From: Trileptium ribeirensis
Taxonomy: Eukaryota > Nematoda > Enoplea > Enoplida > Thoracostomopsidae
NCBI GenBank assembly: GCA_030248225.1
Contig: JASANE010012378.1
Location: 62,001-126,000, forward strand
Direction of reading: 5' to 3'
DNA: 64,000 bases
Shown here one piece after another: positions 39,965 to 53,270 of the stretch. The notes under the pieces are model-generated. The model was not told the DNA's origin and searched no databases. It was given only the letters and a program-made list of their open reading frames with translations. Numbering within the stretch: the first letter of the stretch is position 1; each line of letters opens with the position of its first letter. Position numbers and translations under genes: made by a program.

Positions 39965-40902
39965 TCTACAGTCTGTATACTGAAATACAATGCATAACTA
40001 GTAAGAGTGCAATAAATTTTGCGGGCAAAACGCGCACTAATAACAAGAACAAAATGATAGCTTAGTTTTAGCAGCACACCACAGAGTTATGTGGTTAGAG
40101 TTACCTGTCAAAAGTAATAATGAAAATATTAACGCCAAAATATTGTCCTGTAAAATCGGCGACCTCCTAACCCCATCTAAAGCAAGAGCCCTGGTATTCA
40201 GATCATAATATAATTTCGTATACTTAATGTAATTACAAACACATCATGTATTGCACACACAAGCTTTACTGCAGTTATGAGCTTTAGTTGTTTAAAGTGT
40301 CACTTAATATTAGCAACTAGATAAGCTTCGTCAAGCATTATGCTGTTTACTTTTAGGTTTCTAGAATATTATAATGACACAATTTATCTTACTCAACAAG
40401 TGCTGCATGCCGTTTTTGGGCTAACTTGGCTTTAAAGACCATCTCGATATGCATACTGAGTGACAAAAATCGTAACTTTAGATTAATATCTTTTTGATTT
40501 TTGCATATCTGATTGCAACAAGGAGAACAAACATAGTAACTTTAAGTTAAAGGACACTTACATTCATTTCTAACGGAACAACTTGTCCAGAAGCAACGTG
40601 CCATACAGCTTACACAAAATCGGAAAATTGTTCTACATTCTTCATGCGTTTCATCTGCTGTTCCACGCCGTGGTGAATTGAATCTGCGGACATAAAAGTA
40701 TGACCGCTCTCCAAGTATTTGAAAGTTATCGTCTGTGCCGCAATCTCTTCGCTGTTAACATCCTTCATCATTGTCGAGAACAATGTCCAATTTTTATTTT
40801 GGCCACTGCAGTTGTCCAGCCAAAAAATAAATTTCTTCACGGTTTTGTAGTGCCGCCAAAACTTCCAGTAGGCATTGGCGATGTCAGATCCTAAACGGCC
40901 GG

Positions 40903-41258
40903 TAATGGCTTCATGCCATAACACTGCGACTGTTTTATGGCCAATTGGAGAACGCTGGGAACCCAATATAGCAAACGTTTCATTGTAAGCAATTAAGCGC
41001 GGTGTAAACAAACAACTTTCAATCCCAGGGAGCCTGGGCAACATTATAATTTTTTGCAAATCCGCAGATATTATTACTGTTAATGGCTTCATGCCATAAC
41101 ACTGCGACTGTTTTATGGCCAATTGGAGAACGCTGGGAACCCAATATAGCAAACGTTTCATTGTAAGCAATTAAGCGCGGTGTAAACAAACAACTTTCAA
41201 TCCCAGGGAGCCTGGGCAACATTATAATTTTTTGCAAATCCGCAGATATTATTACTGT
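40903..41258. repeat. 178-bp tandem duplication inside the transposase
   Basis: Bases 40,903-41,080 are repeated without visible change at 41,081-41,258. The unit spans the ADLQK...HEAI coding segment. Because 178 is not a multiple of three it shifts the frame. Apparent identity of the two units suggests a recent event or an assembly artefact. Confidence 0.9.
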
Positions 41259-42319
41259 TGATGCATCAATTTTCTCTTTTTCGACCTCATATGCATTTCT
41301 AGCTGCCTTAGGGCTTTGCAAATGTTCCACGTTAGATATGCAAATGTCACAAGCCAACATATCGTGGTCCCGAGGAACCGATTTTTTGTGCAAAGTATGA
41401 ACGGCGCATACTTCGCATTCCTCATTTCCAAGCACCAAGAAGCTAATATTCATTTCATTAATTTCCTTGCGGTATCTTTCGCATGAAATAGCGCTATTTT
41501 TGGACACAAAGTCTTTATGCATAGCCGTAATAGTTAGATCACTTGGCAAATAAAGTCGCTTGGGTGTATGCGCCCTCCTGTAGTGGCTAATACTTGGATT
41601 AAATGATAGAATATGTCGTCGAATAGGTTCCGTGTCAACTTTCTTTGCATCCTGCTTTTTGCCCAGGCCATCTCCTGACGGTGGAGTTTTATGCGGACGT
41701 GCAACAGCTATTGCGTCTGTTACGACACTAGCATTGCTGAGACCTAATGTCGACAGAAAGAACTGTCTGCATACCTTCCGTAGTTCACTGATGTCACATT
41801 TGAGACGCCATAGTAGCGTATTTTGTCTCCGGGACGACTGCGGTTCTTCCTGTGGCTGCGCCTGCTGTTCTTCTGCTCTTGCAGTTGTTCGACAAACTGT
41901 TGCTCTTCATCGTCTGGTTGCGCCTGTTGCTGTAAAAATTTCCTTCTTTGCAACCGTTCCCGAGCCTTTGGAACTGATTTTACCATTTCCATCAGAAACA
42001 TACGTCGTTGGTCAATATTGGATGCCCAGTAATTGTCGTAAATAGCTTTTCTGTTCTCGTATATGAAATGTTCGCCACAGTTCATTCTACAGCTGCATGT
42101 GTCGCCCATCGGATGTTTAGATTTTTTCATTTCTGTCGTCAATTTTCTTGGTCTTTTAGCGGGAGTATCCGCAGCAGCTATATTGTCAACACTCCGCGCC
42201 ACATTAATATTATCAATAGTGTGAATATTTGGTTGGTAGGTTTCGTTGTCGCCGTCAGATATGTGGGCCCATGATGGTCCAGAACAGATTCGCGATCGTA
42301 CGAACGTAACGGCGGCTGC

Positions 42320-42700
42320 TGATATTGAGGCAGCGTCCAAGTACTCGGCGGCGCAACCCAAGACGACATCGACTCCTGTTGCTGCTGCGGCCACCATGAA
42401 CTTGGCGGCGCAACCCAGGACGACATCGACTCCTGTTGCTGCTGCGGCCACCATGAACTTGGCGGCGCAACCCAAGACGACGTCGACTCTTGTTGCTGCT
42501 GCGGCCACCATGAACTAGGCGGAGCAGCCCAATACGGATTCGGTGCATGTTGCGGTGGTGGACGGCACGACACGGATGTCTCTTGTTGTGGTAGCGGCCA
42601 TGAATCCGGCGGCGCAGCCCAAGACGAGAAGGATGCTTCTTGCTGTGATGGCATCTGTGAACTTGACGGCGCAGCCCAAGACGACATGGATGGCAACTGC
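42320..42700 (-). repeat. 57-bp coding minisatellite (SWVAPPSSWWPQQQQES)
   Basis: The minus strand encodes several copies of a 19-residue unit based on SSWVAPPSSWWPQQQQESM. Three units (about 42,370-42,530) are nearly identical and the outer ones are degenerate. On the DNA level the unit is 57 bp and GC-rich. It forms a disordered spacer between the PWWP domain and the transposase in copy 1 and is absent from copy 2. Confidence 0.85.
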
Positions 42701-42979
42701 TGCTATCGAGGCGGCGCCCAAGAACATGGCGACGCAGCCCTGAACGGCATAGCTGCTTGTTGCGGCGCTTGTGACGTCCGTAATTCCGGCGTTGTGGTCC
42801 GACGTGACGTCGACAGTGGCACAGTAAAGGAAATCGATGACGTATTTGTTATTGGCGGTGGTGTCCATGACGGTAAAGGTGGCGCATGTGACGTTATGAT
42901 ACATAATGATGTGGTAGGCGGTGTGAATGACGGTATCGGTGGCGATACACTTGCTGGCAACTGTGATTCCAGTACTTGA

Positions 42980-43750: not shown

Positions 43751-44168
43751 CTGTTAATTCCAAGTTTTTGCTCAACAGCATCAACCATCCCATGCCAACA
43801 ATCGTCGGCAATTTCATTAGCGTGCTTCGTAATAACAAATATTTGCGATAACGTCGCGAATGTATCCATAAATTGAAAATAAATCTCCGATCCAGAACAG
43901 TATTCGCATGCTGCCTCCATTGCTCAACTCAGTTGAATTGTGGATTTTAGACGCTTATTTTGAAAAAATCTATTGCCTTTTGTTCGTTAAATTGTCGAAC
44001 GCTACACTGATTGACGAACGAGTATTCCTTGTTCGATCCTGACCACCACACGTATGTTGATCCTTTCGGTTGTTTGACATGCGCAGGGGCAATTTTGTCG
44101 TTGGTAACAATAGAAGGCCAGTAACATCGACCCCACTTGACCCACACTAAATCATCGGCAGAATACAT
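43751..44168 (-). pseudogene. PWWP-domain exon (PWWP element, copy 1)
   Basis: The frame starts MYSADDLVWVKWGRCYWPSI, the classic beginning of a PWWP domain (a V-W-K-W-G...Y/F-W-P core), and continues through GSTYVWWSG, where the second aromatic strand is expected. After a frameshift near 43,970 and one TGA it continues MEAACEYCSGSEIYFQF, the alpha-helical end. The same order of blocks occurs in copy 2 (FVKWGSKFWPAIV, FVWWFNDTF, AFYEYCKC). The exon ends at AAC AG|GTTAATC, with the same last codon and phase as copy 2. PWWP domains bind methylated H3K36 chromatin and DNA, so this likely targets the transposase; that role is inferred. Confidence 0.82.
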
Positions 44169-44729
44169 TTTTAAATAATTTACTACCAGTATCGCGTATG
44201 TAATTTTTTCTAAAATATAAATGCCAATAATTAGTGTTACGCAGTCGTCATTATTATCATGTTAGCATATTGGATTAACTTATATCAATAAAGGTTCAGC
44301 CTTAAAAAGCCGTCCAAAAAGGTATGTCCATTGCGATTTTTCGTGCCTCTATAATGGGACAATTTCCAGTTTGTCTTTAAGGCGATCTTCACTTATCTAT
44401 AACGATTAGTGCTAACATGATAATAATGACGTTACAGTTTGGAAACATTAAATGAAAGCACTCGTTTGCATTGGGTTAGCATTACTTCTGATAAATAATA
44501 TAAAGTGCGCTTTTTGCCTTAATATGTACATGTATAATAATAAAACTAATACGATAATTTTTCCCGTATTATATCGCGTAAGTATATATATATGTATATA
44601 GTTGCTCCGTGACCGCGTGCGTTCGCTAGAAGACAGAATCAACCGATATAACGAATTAAACATCGTTGCGACCCGGTATCACAGCGTCGTCAAATATCGA
44701 TCTTTTTAAAAACCTGAAACATAAATTGT

Positions 44730-46198: not shown

Positions 46199-47697
46199 CT
46201 AGTATCTTTCTAATGCTTCTCCTAGCTTTTTAGGACGCCCAACTTTTCTTTTTCTGTTCATAGACTGGGGCAGATCGAGACCCAGCAATTTCGATTTCAT
46301 CGCCAATATATGTTTGCAAACGTAGCTTTTGAGACCGCAGAAACAAGAGCATACCCATAAATGTGAACCATCTGGAATGAATACAGCGTAATGTGAATGA
46401 ATAAACGCTGCGAACTGTGAAAAATCTTCAAACTTGCCAGTGTAGAATAAATTCATCCAGATATCTAACGCAATAGAAGAGTTACTGCCGGACGCGCTGT
46501 ACAAATAATCGTGGATTTTATGAATTGCAGGATTTGTCAGCAAATATGATTTAGTTGCATCAATTAACGAGTGATCCCCGGTATCAGGTTACATTGTGTA
46601 TCCCGACTAGCAACTCAGTTCGGACCATTCCGGTAAACATTTACTCATTTCGGTTAGAAAACAGCCAAACGACATACGCTTAAACATTGTATTCTGCTTT
46701 TTAAGCTTTGAATTCGTAGATTCAACACCATTGTTGGTAGAAGGAAAATGTAACGCTGCGCCTCCATACCATGTTGAAAGACGAACTAGCCACTGCTGTT
46801 TGAAATAAGCAAAAAAGCGTTCAATAATTTCTGAATGAAGATATCCCTATTTTTGCTCCAGCAATTCGGATCCTATGCTAAATAAGTCTGTTGTAAACGA
46901 AAGTTGAATTGTCCTAACATCATGCTCTAGTTCTTTCCAAACGTCATTAGGAAAACCTTTTCCCTTGTGTGCTCGCAGCGCAGACATTACATGAGTCCAG
47001 CACATTAGTCGCTTAGCATTAGGGAACCGAGTGTTCACTGCATTTGTAATAGCGGCGGCGCCATCACCCAACACATAGTCAACGTCAAATTCGGGTAAGC
47101 CAAGTACCTCACCGCAGCGAGATAACGAATTGAAAAAATCCAAATATGTAGAGGTGCGTTCATCTGAGGAAACAATAGCCAGACCAACTGGATGGAATCG
47201 CCTCGCCAGGTCGGTTGTACCCCCAACTAGGACCGGACAATCGTTTAGTAATAGTTTGTAGGTGCAATCCAGTTGAATGAAAGGCCGTTTGTATGCTTGC
47301 TGCAGCAGATACGGAGTTGAAATAAAAATATTAACGTCTTCTGGCCCATGAACAACAAAGTCTGGCGAAACCGTAAGATTATGATTGTTACATGGTGGTG
47401 CAGCATGGGCTGAGCACCACTGCTTTACATCGTCAGCATTGATATTTGACGGCAACTCGGAAACCAATCTGCGACAGTATGCAGCACAATTCTTCAGCTG
47501 TTGTCGATCCGTAACATTGTACCCATCGGCTTGCAGGTTGCGTCTGATTGTCTGCAAGCTGGATCCTGAGGACGCATAAACCTTCACTCGTTCTCGAGCA
47601 GCTTTGTCTATTCCTCTCTTAGTAGGACTGGGACCAGCATGAGCATGTTGTCCTTTAACTTGGACGCTGAATTCTGGCCCAGAATTATCATTCGACC
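46199..47697 (-). pseudogene. MULE transposase, main part (DDE and SWIM domains)
   Basis: In one frame this encodes FSVQVKGQHAHAG (end of a FLYWCH-like zinc finger), then the MULE catalytic region with PFIQLDCTYKLLLNDCPVL, RRFHPVGLAIVSSDE, VDYVLGDGAAAITNAV and RLMCWTHV. Further on are the family block TNNGVESTNSKLK and a SWIM zinc finger (WVCSCFCGLKSYVCKHILAM). It ends with a basic KRKVGRPKKLG near 46,199. The frame never shifts but is interrupted by three stops, one near 46,848 and two near 46,590-46,615. It is therefore a recently inactivated transposase. The first aspartate (LDCT), the GDGAAA aspartate and a downstream glutamate supply the DDE triad. Confidence 0.9.
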
Positions 47698-47701
47698 ATA
47701 T

Positions 47702-47957
47702 TATGGAAAAAACACTTAAGTGATATCTGCCTAATTTCGAGAAAAAATGAAAAATATGTCTCATATAAGCAGTTTTCAGAAGTTGTTGCTTAGCTATGGC
47801 ACGTATTTCACCAAATGTGTTTTATACAATACGGCGTGATCAGTTTAGCTTTCTAATGGTCTAGGGTCAAGAAAATGCACTTAGGTGTTTTTTCCACAAA
47901 AGTTGTATCTTGCACTGTAATGGAAAAAATACCTGAGTATGTATAGGTGTTTTTTCC
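47702..47957. repeat. Left subterminal motif cluster of copy 2
   Basis: Within the terminal repeat and the next 220 bp the motif CTTAGGTGTTTTTTCC occurs at 47,880-47,895 and 47,943-47,957, and inverted at 47,706-47,720 and 47,922-47,937. The same motif recurs at the right end of the element. The mixed orientation parallels the different motif array of copy 1. Confidence 0.75.
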
Positions 47958-48278
47958 TTAACGTTAACCTTCATTTTGAGCATATTAGGTTCAAAGCAAA
48001 AAACCCTTAAACCGTCATTTGATTACCACAATGCTTCCAATAATTATGTACGATATTGTAAAACTCATGAATATTTAGTCTTCAACAATGTTAACCATGT
48101 TAGTTACCTTAAATTCGTTATCCAGGATAATCATGTAGTTCTTTCCGTGCGTCACATTGACTTTTCATTCATCGCGCTGCCAAATTTACACACTGAACGT
48201 CACAAACCTCGGCGTCGTGTATTTATAGTATATATACAGTTTATAGTTGCTGATGTTGTGATTGAAATGTAGTTAGAG
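47958..48278. other. Non-coding 3' region of copy 2
   Basis: AT-rich sequence between the motif cluster and the transposase stop codon, probably the 3' UTR of the transposase transcript. A 98-codon plus-strand frame here is not supported. Confidence 0.4.
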
Positions 48279-50532
48279 CTAATCCTCTTGATCAGATTCG
48301 TTCTGATCAGGCTCGGCAAGGTAGTCGACTACCCTGTCGTTGCTAGGAAGACTTTCGTAGTATGGCAGATATTTTGAAGGCACAGAACCGTCACAAGTGC
48401 AACTAAATCTGTTTTTTTGCTGCGGAAATCGGAATTGGTGCCATATATGCCTGCTGTAGACTCGCTCCAGCAACACTGATTGCTGACCGGCGCGCTTTTG
48501 TTGAAGATATTCGAATTTCAGAGAACCCAATTTGGTTGAAATCAGTTTTGAAGTAAATAGTATCTGGATTAGAATGTTTATACCGCAACCACTTAACACT
48601 TTTCCAGCTAAGTCTGTCACCTGTAACACTGATGCTACGGTTAGTAATTACGCTGTTCGTTAGCTGATGTAGGTCTGATATATCGTCCTGCGTCAGGATT
48701 TTGATTATAAACGGATTGTTCCATCGCGCTGCCAGTATAATGTTTTTCCACATATCTGGTTCATAAATTTCTTGATGAGCCTTAGCGAATTCGATCATGG
48801 AATGCATGCTATCAACTTCCATGTACGTGTGTCCGGGTTCGAGAAATTTGTGGTCGATCGTTTCTAATGTCGCACTATTCACAACTGTGTGCAGCAAAGC
48901 AGAAGCGACCTGTATGTTTCGATTTTGCCCTGAACAATTGTCTGAGTATAGCGATACCCTCCGAACGTGAGCGGGCAAAGACCGAAGGTAAATCAATAAA
49001 CAACTACCAATTTCGTTGCTGCCTCGCTTACCAACACACTCGTCCCATAAGTAACAAAACCCGTTATTTGGCAACTGCTGTTCATAGATTGTCAAATTGT
49101 AAACCGCCAATTTTCTTCGATAATACGTAGTGCTAACTTGATTGCAGGCGTATACAGAACTGATTCCAGGTCGAACGTAACACTTCTGTAAGAATCATTT
49201 GTTTGGCATTTAAACTTGTCAAGCTTCTTTTCGTTCATTACATCTTCCTTCCGTTCGATATGCGGGTTGTAGACATTCAACATATAAGCGTCCAGTTCGT
49301 CGCCAGATTTATGTAGCCGCCTCACGCAAGTTACACACTGATCTTTTTTTGGTTGGAAAAAACTGATGTTGGGGAATTCATCGTTCATGATCTTCACAAA
49401 GAGCTGCCGCCCAACTGGCTTTACGTTTTCTCGCAATTTCGCAGCCTCTACATACAAATCGTACATCTTTTGCTTATTGAGACCAGGATGCAGATATCGA
49501 CGGTGTCTGTTTTTGGCCCTTACGTAATGAGGCATCATTACTGGAAAAGTGCCAATATGTTGCTTGACAGCATCAACTTCTGCAGTGGAGGTCTTATTTG
49601 GTGGAGCACTTTTCCCACGTCGTTCAGTTCCTATGTATTCTCCCTGTACACCGCAGTTTTTTCTAGCATGTCGAAGCATGCTGTCGTTCTTCATACCTAA
49701 GGTTCTAAGCAGAAAGTCCTTGCAAACACTTAGTTCGACGATTGCGTTACCATCTGTGTCACTAGCATTTGTTTCGTCAGCACTCACAATGCCATCCAAG
49801 CCATTACCCGCATTGGCACTTATTGTGCCACTCGAACCATTACCCGCATTGGCACTTACTGTGCCGCCCGCATTGGCCTTCTTCTTTAGGATGTCCGACT
49901 TCTTGATAGCGAAAAAATATTTGTAGTTGATCGTTCTTGTCGGATCGTCCTGGTTTGTGCGACGTCGCTTAACTTCAACGGGCTTTATTCGCTTGAGCAA
50001 AAATCCATTTGTCGCACCCGGCTGTTAAGAGAATAAAATGAAGCAAATATCGACTCCCTAACATGTTCCGGAAACAATCGGCAATTGAGAGGGCAGTTGC
50101 AAGCTCTCGGGATTGGCTGACGGGCTTTAACTTCTAGTCCCTTGTAGTTAGTGTAGGCTTTGCCGCATAATCTCTTTAATTTCGACGTATTTTTCTTCCA
50201 CTCGGAAGGCTCTGCTACGCGACGTCGCTTACGTACCATATGAGCAGTGTGCTCGTTGTCGCCGGGTTCCATGATACTAGACGCTTCGACGTGAAGGGCT
50301 GTTACTACTTCTCGTACGATATGCGTTGGTTGTCTGGCAGGGACTGCTGAACATTCACCGCTCGCTTCGCTTCCGCTGTCACTTTCACTATCGGAATCCG
50401 GTATGAAGTCGTCATCGTGAAATTCAGCTGGAATTCGTTTCTTTGGCGGGCTTGGAGGGATACTGCACGGGGGCATGCCCTTCATCGATATCGGATACGC
50501 TACGAAATTTGAAGCCATTGACGCGAAGGACT
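48279..50532 (-). pseudogene. DNCSGQN-type DDE transposase exon (copy 2), decayed
   Basis: The acceptor ATTTGCAG|AGTCC (50,532) supplies two bases that complete a Glu codon with exon 2. The protein has an acidic N-terminal segment, WKKNTSKLKRLCGKAYTN, and CNCPLNCRLFPEHVRESIF. These are followed by GTFPVMMPHYVRAKNRHRRY, CVTCVRRLH, DLESVLYTPAIKLA, LYSDNCSGQNRN and FLEPGHTYMEVDSMHSMIE, then an acidic C-terminus ending at 48,279. Three acidic residues in DLES, SDNCSGQN and YMEVDSMH are the likely catalytic set. Frameshifts near 50,020 (a T run), 49,125 and 48,400-48,550 break the frame. A short run of ANAGNG-type repeats lies near 49,830. Similar genes I recall are annotated only as uncharacterised (DUF7869). 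Confidence 0.82.
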
Positions 50533-51282
50533 CTGCAAATATAAAATGCAATATAATGTAGAAGAAATTTATAGGTAAATGAATATAGTAGTAATTCAAA
50601 AGTAGAATTCAAAGTCCTGCTATATACTTCATTACGGCCCACCTGAACGGCATATACAATGTTAAGAGAGCCATCTTCCGATAAATTCTCGGATAAATTC
50701 TCTCTACATCAACCGAAAATCATCAAGACTAAAAATACAGTAAAACTAAACAAAAAATAAAACGGTATAAATAGCTTGGTGGCGGCAGGCGAGTGCGGTA
50801 GACCCGACTCGATACGCATAACATACAATAAATTGAACAGGCATCGGCTTGAAGCTCGCTTAATTTCAGATATTGTAATAGTAAACCGGAACACGCAATT
50901 GAAAAAACCATTTGACTTTTGTTGAATATCTGAAGTTCATTGAGGTGTTTATAAAGATTTAATAGAATAGAACCGACACAAACACCTGTGTGAGGGATAC
51001 CTAATACTTTTATTTAAATGTGCTTATTTAAATTTACATGGTCGTGAATATCTGTGGCAGCTGATATTTATATTGGCAATTTCATACATATGTTGTTAGG
51101 CAGTGAATATCATACTCTGGTTATCTTTATCGTTTTTAGTGTAATTTGCAATACTGCGAATAGCTGACTTCCCAAAGTATGTACTTGTCAGGCAATTTAG
51201 GATAGCCACAATAATGTTCAGTTTTAAATAGCATGTGTGCAAAGAACGCACCATTTGCAGAAACTATAGCAAGTAAGCTCAC
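50533..51282 (-). other. Intron 2 of the copy 2 gene
   Basis: Bounded by ACTGAGG|GTGAGCTT and ATTTGCAG|, with matching phase on both sides. No coding content is recognised. Confidence 0.55.
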
Positions 51283-51401
51283 CCTCAGTATTCAAAGAAG
51301 TTTCGCTATTATCTGGAATGTCAATCTCTGGTAAGTTGCTGGCACGACATGCTTCGTCAACGACACGTTGAAGCACTTCCACCACAGCAGGATCACTTGA
51401 G
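51283..51401 (-). pseudogene. Linker exon of the PWWP-transposase gene (copy 2)
   Basis: A 119-bp exon encodes SSDPAVVEVLQRVVDEACRA and SNLPEIDIPDNSETSLNTE. The acceptor CCTAATTTTAG|CTCAAG and donor ACTGAGG|GTGAGC are good. It begins with one base that completes a Ser codon with the AG at the end of the PWWP exon. It ends with one base completing Glu with the transposase exon. The agreement at both junctions is strong evidence that PWWP and transposase are one protein. Confidence 0.75.
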
Positions 51402-51849
51402 CTAAAATTAGGACGATATTAAACACATAGTCACAAGTTAGTGTTGAGTAATTTACAGAGCTTATAAAGAAATATAATAATGATTAAAAACTAAAACAGC
51501 CTAATCTTCACCCTCGACGGTTAACTTATATACGTAAAATCACCTATATACAAGGGTTCTTTGAAAGTCGTCAGATTTCCGAACTATATCATACGAAATA
51601 TAAGCATGTATATGCTGAAAAACAGAATGATTTCACGTTATCTTCAGCGATGTAACAAGCAGAACGCCGACATCCCTACCAAAAAATTCAAAATCTCAAT
51701 CGGTTCATTTACGATTATCATTTTGCTACATAGCTTAAAATGTTGCTCAAACTATATTTTATGGCCAATCGACACGTTGAAGAATAAAAATTACGTAAGG
51801 CTACAGCATTCGATTGTGCAGTTCACATTTTTACAACAGAAAAGAAAAC
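51402..51849 (-). other. Intron 1 of the copy 2 gene
   Basis: Bounded by AACAG|GTTTTC and CCTAATTTTAG|. A 103-codon plus-strand frame inside is at chance length and is not called. Confidence 0.5.
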
Positions 51850-52201
51850 CTGTTAGCCGCTTCGATTTGTAGTAGCTTGTCTGTTTCACCCTCGCATTTG
51901 CAATATTCGTAAAATGCGTCCATGTACTCGGCAAACTGCTTAGTCGTCTTGTCGGTTACTCTGATCAACTTTGCCAAGTCGGGATTATTAAACGGAACGA
52001 TTTGTACTGAAGAAGGTACGGTCGAGAAAGTATCGTTAAACCACCATACAAAAGTTTGGCCTTTTTTGGTGGTTTTGGCGAGGTGCTTGGGTCGCAGACA
52101 ATTGCGGGCCAAAACTTTGATCCCCATTTAACAAAAATGCATTCATCCGTTTTAAATTTATTACTGTCATAGTTAGGCTTTCGTATTCGTTTACGTGCCA
52201 T
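51850..52201 (-). pseudogene. PWWP-domain exon (PWWP element, copy 2)
   Basis: The ATG at 52,201 starts MARKRIRKPNYDS, followed by the PWWP core CIFVKWGSKFWPAIVCD and, after a frameshift in an A run near 52,065, GQTFVWWFNDTFSTV and the helical end FAEYMDAFYEYCKCEGETDK. Apart from that single frameshift the exon is intact. The donor is AAC AG|GTTTTC, with the same codon and phase as copy 1. PWWP domains read methylated H3K36 and bind DNA. In a transposase this could direct integration to transcribed gene bodies; that is inference. Confidence 0.85.
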
Positions 52202-52640
52202 AGCTAGTTACAAGTATATATAGCTATTAATAATACTAATTACTGAATATACTAAGCATCTGTTTAAAAAAACCTGCTAATGAAATTAGGGATGTACAAA
52301 GCACAAAGTGTATAAATAACGTGTTAAATATTGCGCACACGGGGATAGTAGATTTTCTATATATACATACTTAGCATTTGTCGCCATTGTGTTGCTTCTA
52401 TAAACAACTGTGCAATGTTTTCTTGAAAGGAACATAGCGCATTTGGCGATGAATTAATGACATTTTTCTACAACAAAGCACATTAGCAACAAAAAGTTGA
52501 TGATTTAAGTGTACTTAAAAACTACAGAATATGTTACTTCAAGATTTAGTGACATAGTCAATATTATGACAAAGGTTAGAGTATGGATCAAAAAACTTAT
52601 CCAGCATAAGTGTACTTTAGACTAGGACGAAAATCACCCA
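52202..52640. other. 5' non-coding region of copy 2
   Basis: AT-rich sequence between the PWWP start codon and the right motif cluster. It presumably holds the promoter, but no element could be identified. Confidence 0.4.
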
Positions 52641-52646
52641 AGTCAA

Positions 52647-52900
52647 TTTAAGTGTTTTTTCCGCCAAACGAGAACAAAAAACTGTGACGTGGAAAAAACA
52701 CTTGAGAGCACATAGGGCATTTTTCTTTAACATAACAAGATAAGATGTCGTTTAGGTGCTTTCGTTTCTTCTGTTATAACATAATGTAGGCTGCTCTTGT
52801 CGCTTAAGTACTTTTTCCACAGCATGCCTATCGGCCTCAGCTACAATATAATGTATAAAACTCGAAATTAAAAAATTGTCGCTTAGGTGCTTTTTCCATA
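52647..52900. repeat. Right subterminal motif cluster of copy 2
   Basis: The motif occurs at 52,647 (TTTAAGTGTTTTTTCC), inverted at 52,691 (GGAAAAAACACTTGAG), and forward at about 52,749, 52,801 and 52,881 (GCTTAGGTGCTTTTTCC). It matches the cluster at the left end of the element. The last copy is part of the terminal inverted repeat. Confidence 0.78.
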
Positions 52901-52904
52901 ATAT

Positions 52905-53088
52905 ATTATATGGCCCAATATTATCATATATTATCATATATGAATTTGCAGTCTCGGAAATGTCTAAAATATCTGCATCGATAATATGTCTTGTTACCGC
53001 ACGTCTTAGATTTTACAACTTGCTGGTTTCTGATAAACTCTTGTGCGGCTGCATCGCTACTGAAACTTTTTTCTTCAGCAAAATCCAT
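52905..53088 (-). pseudogene. MULE transposase N-terminus (5' of the nested element)
   Basis: An ATG at 53,088 starts MDFAEEKSFSSDAAAQEF and leads to the first half of a FLYWCH-like zinc finger (NKTYYRCRYFRHFRDCKF). The second half (VQVKGQHAHAG) lies 5.2 kb away beyond the nested element, so the insertion split the finger. A duplicated TATGATAAT stretch and a TGA lie next to the insertion point. Confidence 0.75.
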
Positions 53089-53270
53089 ATATAAAACTAA
53101 CTCGCATTAGAGTTATACGACATGTATTTACTGAAATTCGCTCAAAACTGTGGCAAACTCCGAAAATGATTATTCAGTATAACTGTCATTCAACTGTCGT
53201 CTTTTACACTTTTCCAATCGTTGTCATCCATCATTTTACGGTAAATGGGGTGTAATCACTTTGTTTCTTA

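Follow-up and report, generated by a model that had tools for sequence, protein, structure and literature searches.

Does a transposon in the nematode Trileptium ribeirensis encode a transposase that carries its own chromatin reader? The question is raised by a stretch of 64,000 nucleotides (assembly GCA_030248225.1, contig JASANE010012378.1, positions 62,001 to 126,000 of the forward strand), termed here the window, and within it by a DUF7869 transposon, element 1, which occupies positions 47703..52899 on the minus strand. An earlier note, written by a model from the letters alone, had read the gene of this element as three exons in which a PWWP domain, a reader of methylated histone H3 lysine 36 (H3K36), is joined to a DDE-like transposase bearing a DNCSGQN motif. 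We examined the element, its relatives in the same genome and its known counterparts.

The PWWP-DUF7869 fusion

Elsewhere in this genome, relatives of element 1 encode PWWP and DUF7869 as a single polypeptide. We searched the 687 Mb genome (20,229 contigs) for both domains and scored the best 148 of 313 candidates for DUF7869 and the best 150 of 777 for PWWP, all 150 of the latter lying above the cut-off. Among six loci chosen for a long open reading frame (ORF), five (C8188, C16214, C18548, C9325 and C15429) carry a PWWP domain in the transposase ORF and the sixth, C1769, has none there. The 644-aa ORF of C16214 is above the Pfam cut-off for PWWP, below that for DUF7869, and is matched by a family profile. 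The earlier note had proposed to look for intact copies in related genomes; in this one, counting C8546 too, five uninterrupted ORFs of 799-1146 aa exceed both Pfam cut-offs (PF00855 and PF25273). The PWWP scores of five single-ORF relatives range from 28.0 to 60.1 bits (cut-off 25.6).

The arrangement extends well beyond these ORFs. Fifteen pairs formed by the 148 DUF7869 and 150 PWWP matches share a contig, and 13 of them are at most 6.4 kb apart, with PWWP 5' and on the same strand in 13 of 13, versus about 0.1 close pairs of this order and strand expected by simple arithmetic; the remaining two lie 7.2 kb apart on opposite strands and 32.8 kb apart. Altogether we counted 30 loci at which a DUF7869 transposase is preceded on its 5' side by a PWWP on the same strand: the 13 close pairs, both elements of the window, C13937, C8188, C9325, C18548, C15429, C16214, C14730, C15407, C7536, C17210, C10627, C3285, C11417, C17124 and C17213. 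These do not amount to 30 independent events, since C8546 and C7300 share ends and C15407 resembles C8188. They take in 23 of the 148 scored DUF7869 matches, the upstream sequence of a minority of the others having been covered. At four loci that had shown no PWWP, extending the view by about 1.4 kb in the upstream direction revealed the domain at two (C17124 and C17213), and it was absent from that interval at C16237 and C8122.

In element 1 itself the gene is broken. Exon 1, holding the PWWP domain (51850..52201, minus strand), is open in two frames: that of the ATG at 52201 hits a stop at 51965, and the one leading into the following exons opens only from 52127. Exon 2, a linker (51283..51401, minus), was delimited by its GT/AG borders and phase, and exon 3 (48279..50532, minus) encodes a transposase broken over several frames. 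The three in-phase exons of the earlier note therefore stand as to positions, GT/AG borders at both junctions and one continuous frame across them, and fall as to exon 1, which is not a single open frame and is in phase only in its second half. The proposed fusion fared likewise: single-ORF relatives establish it more widely than had been noted, and the copy in the window is damaged in both its PWWP and its transposase exons. That the DNCSGQN transposase belongs to DUF7869 proved correct, residues 48-155 of ORF 48403-49194, which contain the motif (48730..49053, minus, inside exon 3), matching PF25273 with 35.3 bits (cut-off 26).

Against the Pfam PWWP profile, a comparison that the note had also suggested, the first half of exon 1 alone reached 18.1 bits (E=0.0038) and the whole exon read through with X 24.3 bits (E=4.4e-5), just below the cut-off of 25.6. 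Together with the broken frames, this score would suit a reading in which the PWWP exon lies outside the transposase gene, either as a separate gene beside it or as an ORF arising by chance. We note the result of an independent PWWP profile, built from five relatives with no window sequence and run on the 1180 window ORFs of at least 30 aa: its three matches at E<=1 were both frames of exon 1 and the ORF upstream of the transposase of element 2, the other DUF7869 element of the window. This match and the single-ORF relatives rule out a chance ORF, and a separate gene, already refuted for the relatives by the single-ORF fusions and opposed by the constant order and strand of the close pairs, is hardly credible for element 1. 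A PDB search with its read-through PWWP gave no convincing match (HDGFL3, E=0.52).

Ends and insertion site of element 1

The boundaries of element 1 were placed by the outermost ATGG..CCAT ends, the inverted ends, an end common to the copy on contig C6676 and eight insert-free MULE copies. Its terminal inverted repeats (TIRs), of about 40 bp as first noted, are 44 nt long and 80% complementary (47698..47741, plus strand, on the 3' side of the gene; 52861..52904, minus, on the 5' side). The TIR core recurs in direct and inverted families of subterminal repeats (GGAAAAAACACYTAAG-like) at 47881..47963 on the 3' side and 52648..52824 on the 5' side. Outside these ends lies an interrupted host MULE, whose 5' part (52905..53106, minus) was recognized by comparison with uninterrupted copies and whose remainder (46199..47697, minus) contains a MULE domain (PF10551, 37.2 bits) and a SWIM zinc finger (PF04434, 19.6 bits). 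The joined flanks of element 1 gave 13 matches in the genome, namely eight MULE copies running through the junction without the element, the two flanks of the window itself and three partial matches. Because eight MULE copies cross the junction in this way, element 1 is an insertion into the MULE. Having both TIRs and this evidence of movement, it is probably a damaged copy of a DNA transposon of the cut-and-paste type, with TIRs and subterminal repeats of the TIR core.

The flanks are about 40-47 bp longer than the eight empty sites and include a repeated target stretch beside the insertion (window 52905-52990); no clean target-site duplication was readable in this comparison, nor in the C8546 family, where the ends were compared at five termini. 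The second copy of element 1, on C6676, is 97-98% identical over window 47695-51091, and as its contig starts at that edge, before the PWWP exon, it is uninformative on that exon. The two copies differ in the number of units of a 36-bp tandem repeat that lies in frame within the linker of the transposase (window 49780-49851 and L004 1226-1409). Another element end, on C588 (L078 from 1501), shares the terminal motif and has numerous subterminal repeats, just 22 bp of it matching element 1. An Rfam scan of the window gave no match.

A predicted tether to H3K36-methylated chromatin

As to the catalytic part, a DUF7869 relative from a mollusc displays, when modelled, an RNase-H/DDE-type core, in keeping with the DDE-like nature first proposed, and an RNase-H fold with conserved acidic residues was found; we infer that DUF7869 is an RNase-H/DDE nuclease. 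No match to rve, the Gypsy-integrase-like core of Ginger, occurred among the Pfam results for the window ORFs or the fusions, the GPY/F motif not being searched. The DUF7869 profile run on solved-structure sequences gave OTU-region and chance matches only, NCBIfam gave no match, and the VIA rows held no transposase closer than mariner and integrases, which excludes nothing. As to the reader, the positions that we take to be the aromatic-cage sites are largely kept in the DUF7869-linked PWWP domains, sites 1, 2 and 3 being aromatic in 13/16, 15/16 and 16/16, with two adjacent columns pooled for the third.

We consider that element 1 is probably a damaged cut-and-paste element encoding a PWWP-DUF7869 transposase, in which DDE chemistry would cut and join DNA at the TIRs and the PWWP would tether the enzyme to H3K36-methylated chromatin. 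Such tethering is the likeliest predicted function of the domain. The transposase would begin with the N-terminal PWWP, continue through an acidic linker and then a zinc-cysteine-rich region, and end in the C-terminal DUF7869 catalytic domain. While the DUF7869 core acted at the inverted repeats, the PWWP would anchor the complex of transposase and DNA to nucleosomes bearing methylated H3K36 and to the DNA close by, in the way that LEDGF/p75 serves lentiviral integrase, and insertion would be favoured in transcribed, open chromatin; the tether would be carried by the element itself and not borrowed from a host protein. It weighs against this proposal that the sole insertion that can be placed, that of element 1, lies in a MULE and not in a shown gene body.

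The same location can be read in two other ways. PWWP domains bind DNA too, and the domain might serve as a general grip on DNA or nucleosomes, or help the transposase to find its own ends or the nucleus, in either case irrespective of H3K36 methylation. Variation at the cage, whose first site is non-aromatic in 3/16, would agree with such a role; the near-constant second and third sites speak against it, and we regard it as unlikely. It is also conceivable that the PWWP directs the element into chromatin of another kind, silent or repeat-rich, and so spares genes, given that elements 1 and 2 both lie in a transposon-rich window. A single insertion site says little, however, and most of the solved PWWP structures that were matched are presumably H3K36me readers, which makes steering of this kind improbable.

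Unexpectedly, two unrelated kinds of mobile element in this genome carry the same reader domain. Twenty of the best 30 PWWP matches of the genome occur with a Ty3/gypsy-type RNaseH-integrase, 18 of these in one ORF, with PWWP at the C-terminal side (L040 1429-3255 and L055 1387-3237, both minus strand, and 18 more of L039-L068); for nine of the remaining ten DUF7869 lies within the locus, and for the tenth (C14157) it lies 2.8 kb downstream. Pfam identified an integrase core, an H2C2 zinc finger, RNase H and PWWP within the single ORF of each of two gypsy elements, and the aligned gypsy PWWPs are aromatic at the cage sites in 6/6. We lean slightly towards the view that a DNA transposase, at its N-terminus, and a Ty3/gypsy-type integrase, at its C-terminus, have each captured a PWWP and so converged on a self-carried H3K36-methyl tether, a natural all-in-one counterpart of LEDGF tethering.

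Several known systems resemble this design in part. Chromoviruses possess chromodomain integrases and thus likewise fuse a histone-methyl reader to the integrase of a mobile element, the difference being that the reader is a chromodomain, C-terminal and in a retrotransposon; the gypsy-type integrases with C-terminal PWWP are the nearer parallel to them. SETMAR/Metnase, which joins a SET writer domain to a mariner transposase, differs in being a domesticated host gene. According to PMC5082951, the PWWP of LEDGF recognizes H3K36me3 and takes LEDGF to the bodies of active units, and in LEDGF/p75 it tethers the RNase-H-fold lentiviral integrase to active genes; there the PWWP resides in a host protein that binds the integrase, whereas in the present elements the transposase itself contains the domain. 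Ginger1 transposases also have extra domains, an OTU or Ulp1 protease and in one family a PHD, as described in PMC2836005, but these are C-terminal and accompany a Gypsy-integrase-like core, and PWWP has 0 occurrences in that paper. In the open-licence PMC literature, as far as it was searched, no description of a PWWP-transposase fusion was found, including PMC3978060, PMC11244446, PMC8141815, PMC5082951 and PMC12460157, in agreement with the earlier note, which knew of none; PMC3978060 deals with something else, the insertion of Pot3 into a gene that has a PWWP domain. DUF7869 is named in no open-licence PMC paper. If the tether works, these elements show that the reading of active-gene chromatin can be built into a transposase, as has been engineered by hand for integration retargeting; comparing naturally occurring elements that have PWWP with counterparts that lack it (or have OTU) would test directly whether a fused reader determines where insertion occurs, and the uncharacterized DUF7869 family would have a function to look for.

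Spread of the family and the second element of the window

DUF7869 proteins of molluscs, insects and others belong to the same catalytic family, with at most 44% identity, and differ in their additional domains: PWWP was found in 0/46 long relatives scanned, which were among the longest in the database, and 21 of these have an OTU-like protease domain instead (P0003, P0010, P0014, P0018, P0027 and others). An alignment of six fusions used as query retrieved, from a list of best candidates, two proteins without PWWP annotation, one row being repetitive, and residues 62-430 of the C8546 protein had no match at E<=0.001 among 6014 candidates; both searches require shared 5-residue words and most entries are without introns, so that they are weak evidence of absence. 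Four stretches of viral contigs matched a pattern, with no relative among them. In a tree of 53 catalytic cores the 13 PWWP rows are scattered, implying at least 9 changes, 6 of them forced by well-supported branches, with long branches making the details unsure. This scatter suggests either an old fusion followed by loss (or by a PWWP that went unseen) or repeated capture. Directly before the PWWP of the 850-aa C8546 fusion (L069, 3624 down to 3430, minus strand) stands a CGDIEPNPGP stretch, which we take to resemble a 2A peptide.

Both DUF7869 elements of the window have the PWWP 5' of the transposase. The PWWP ORF of element 2 (43950..44261, minus strand) scores 28.0 bits with PF00855 (cut-off 25.6) and is also matched by the independent profile; modelled alone, it gave an unusable pLDDT of 48. 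Its transposase ORFs (40610..42514, minus) show 32% identity over the DNCSGQN stretch, and the tree groups element 2 with C18548 and C15429. The element is divergent, and its subterminal repeats, judged by eye, are of a different motif (GGACATAGAGCTTTT-like). A long low-complexity repeat region (WAAPPSSWWPQQQQ-like) lies in its transposase at window 42255-42979, and the C18548 relative has a YCPQPATSYQTSYYSSAMPGSQISSSGWS-type repeat at the matching position.
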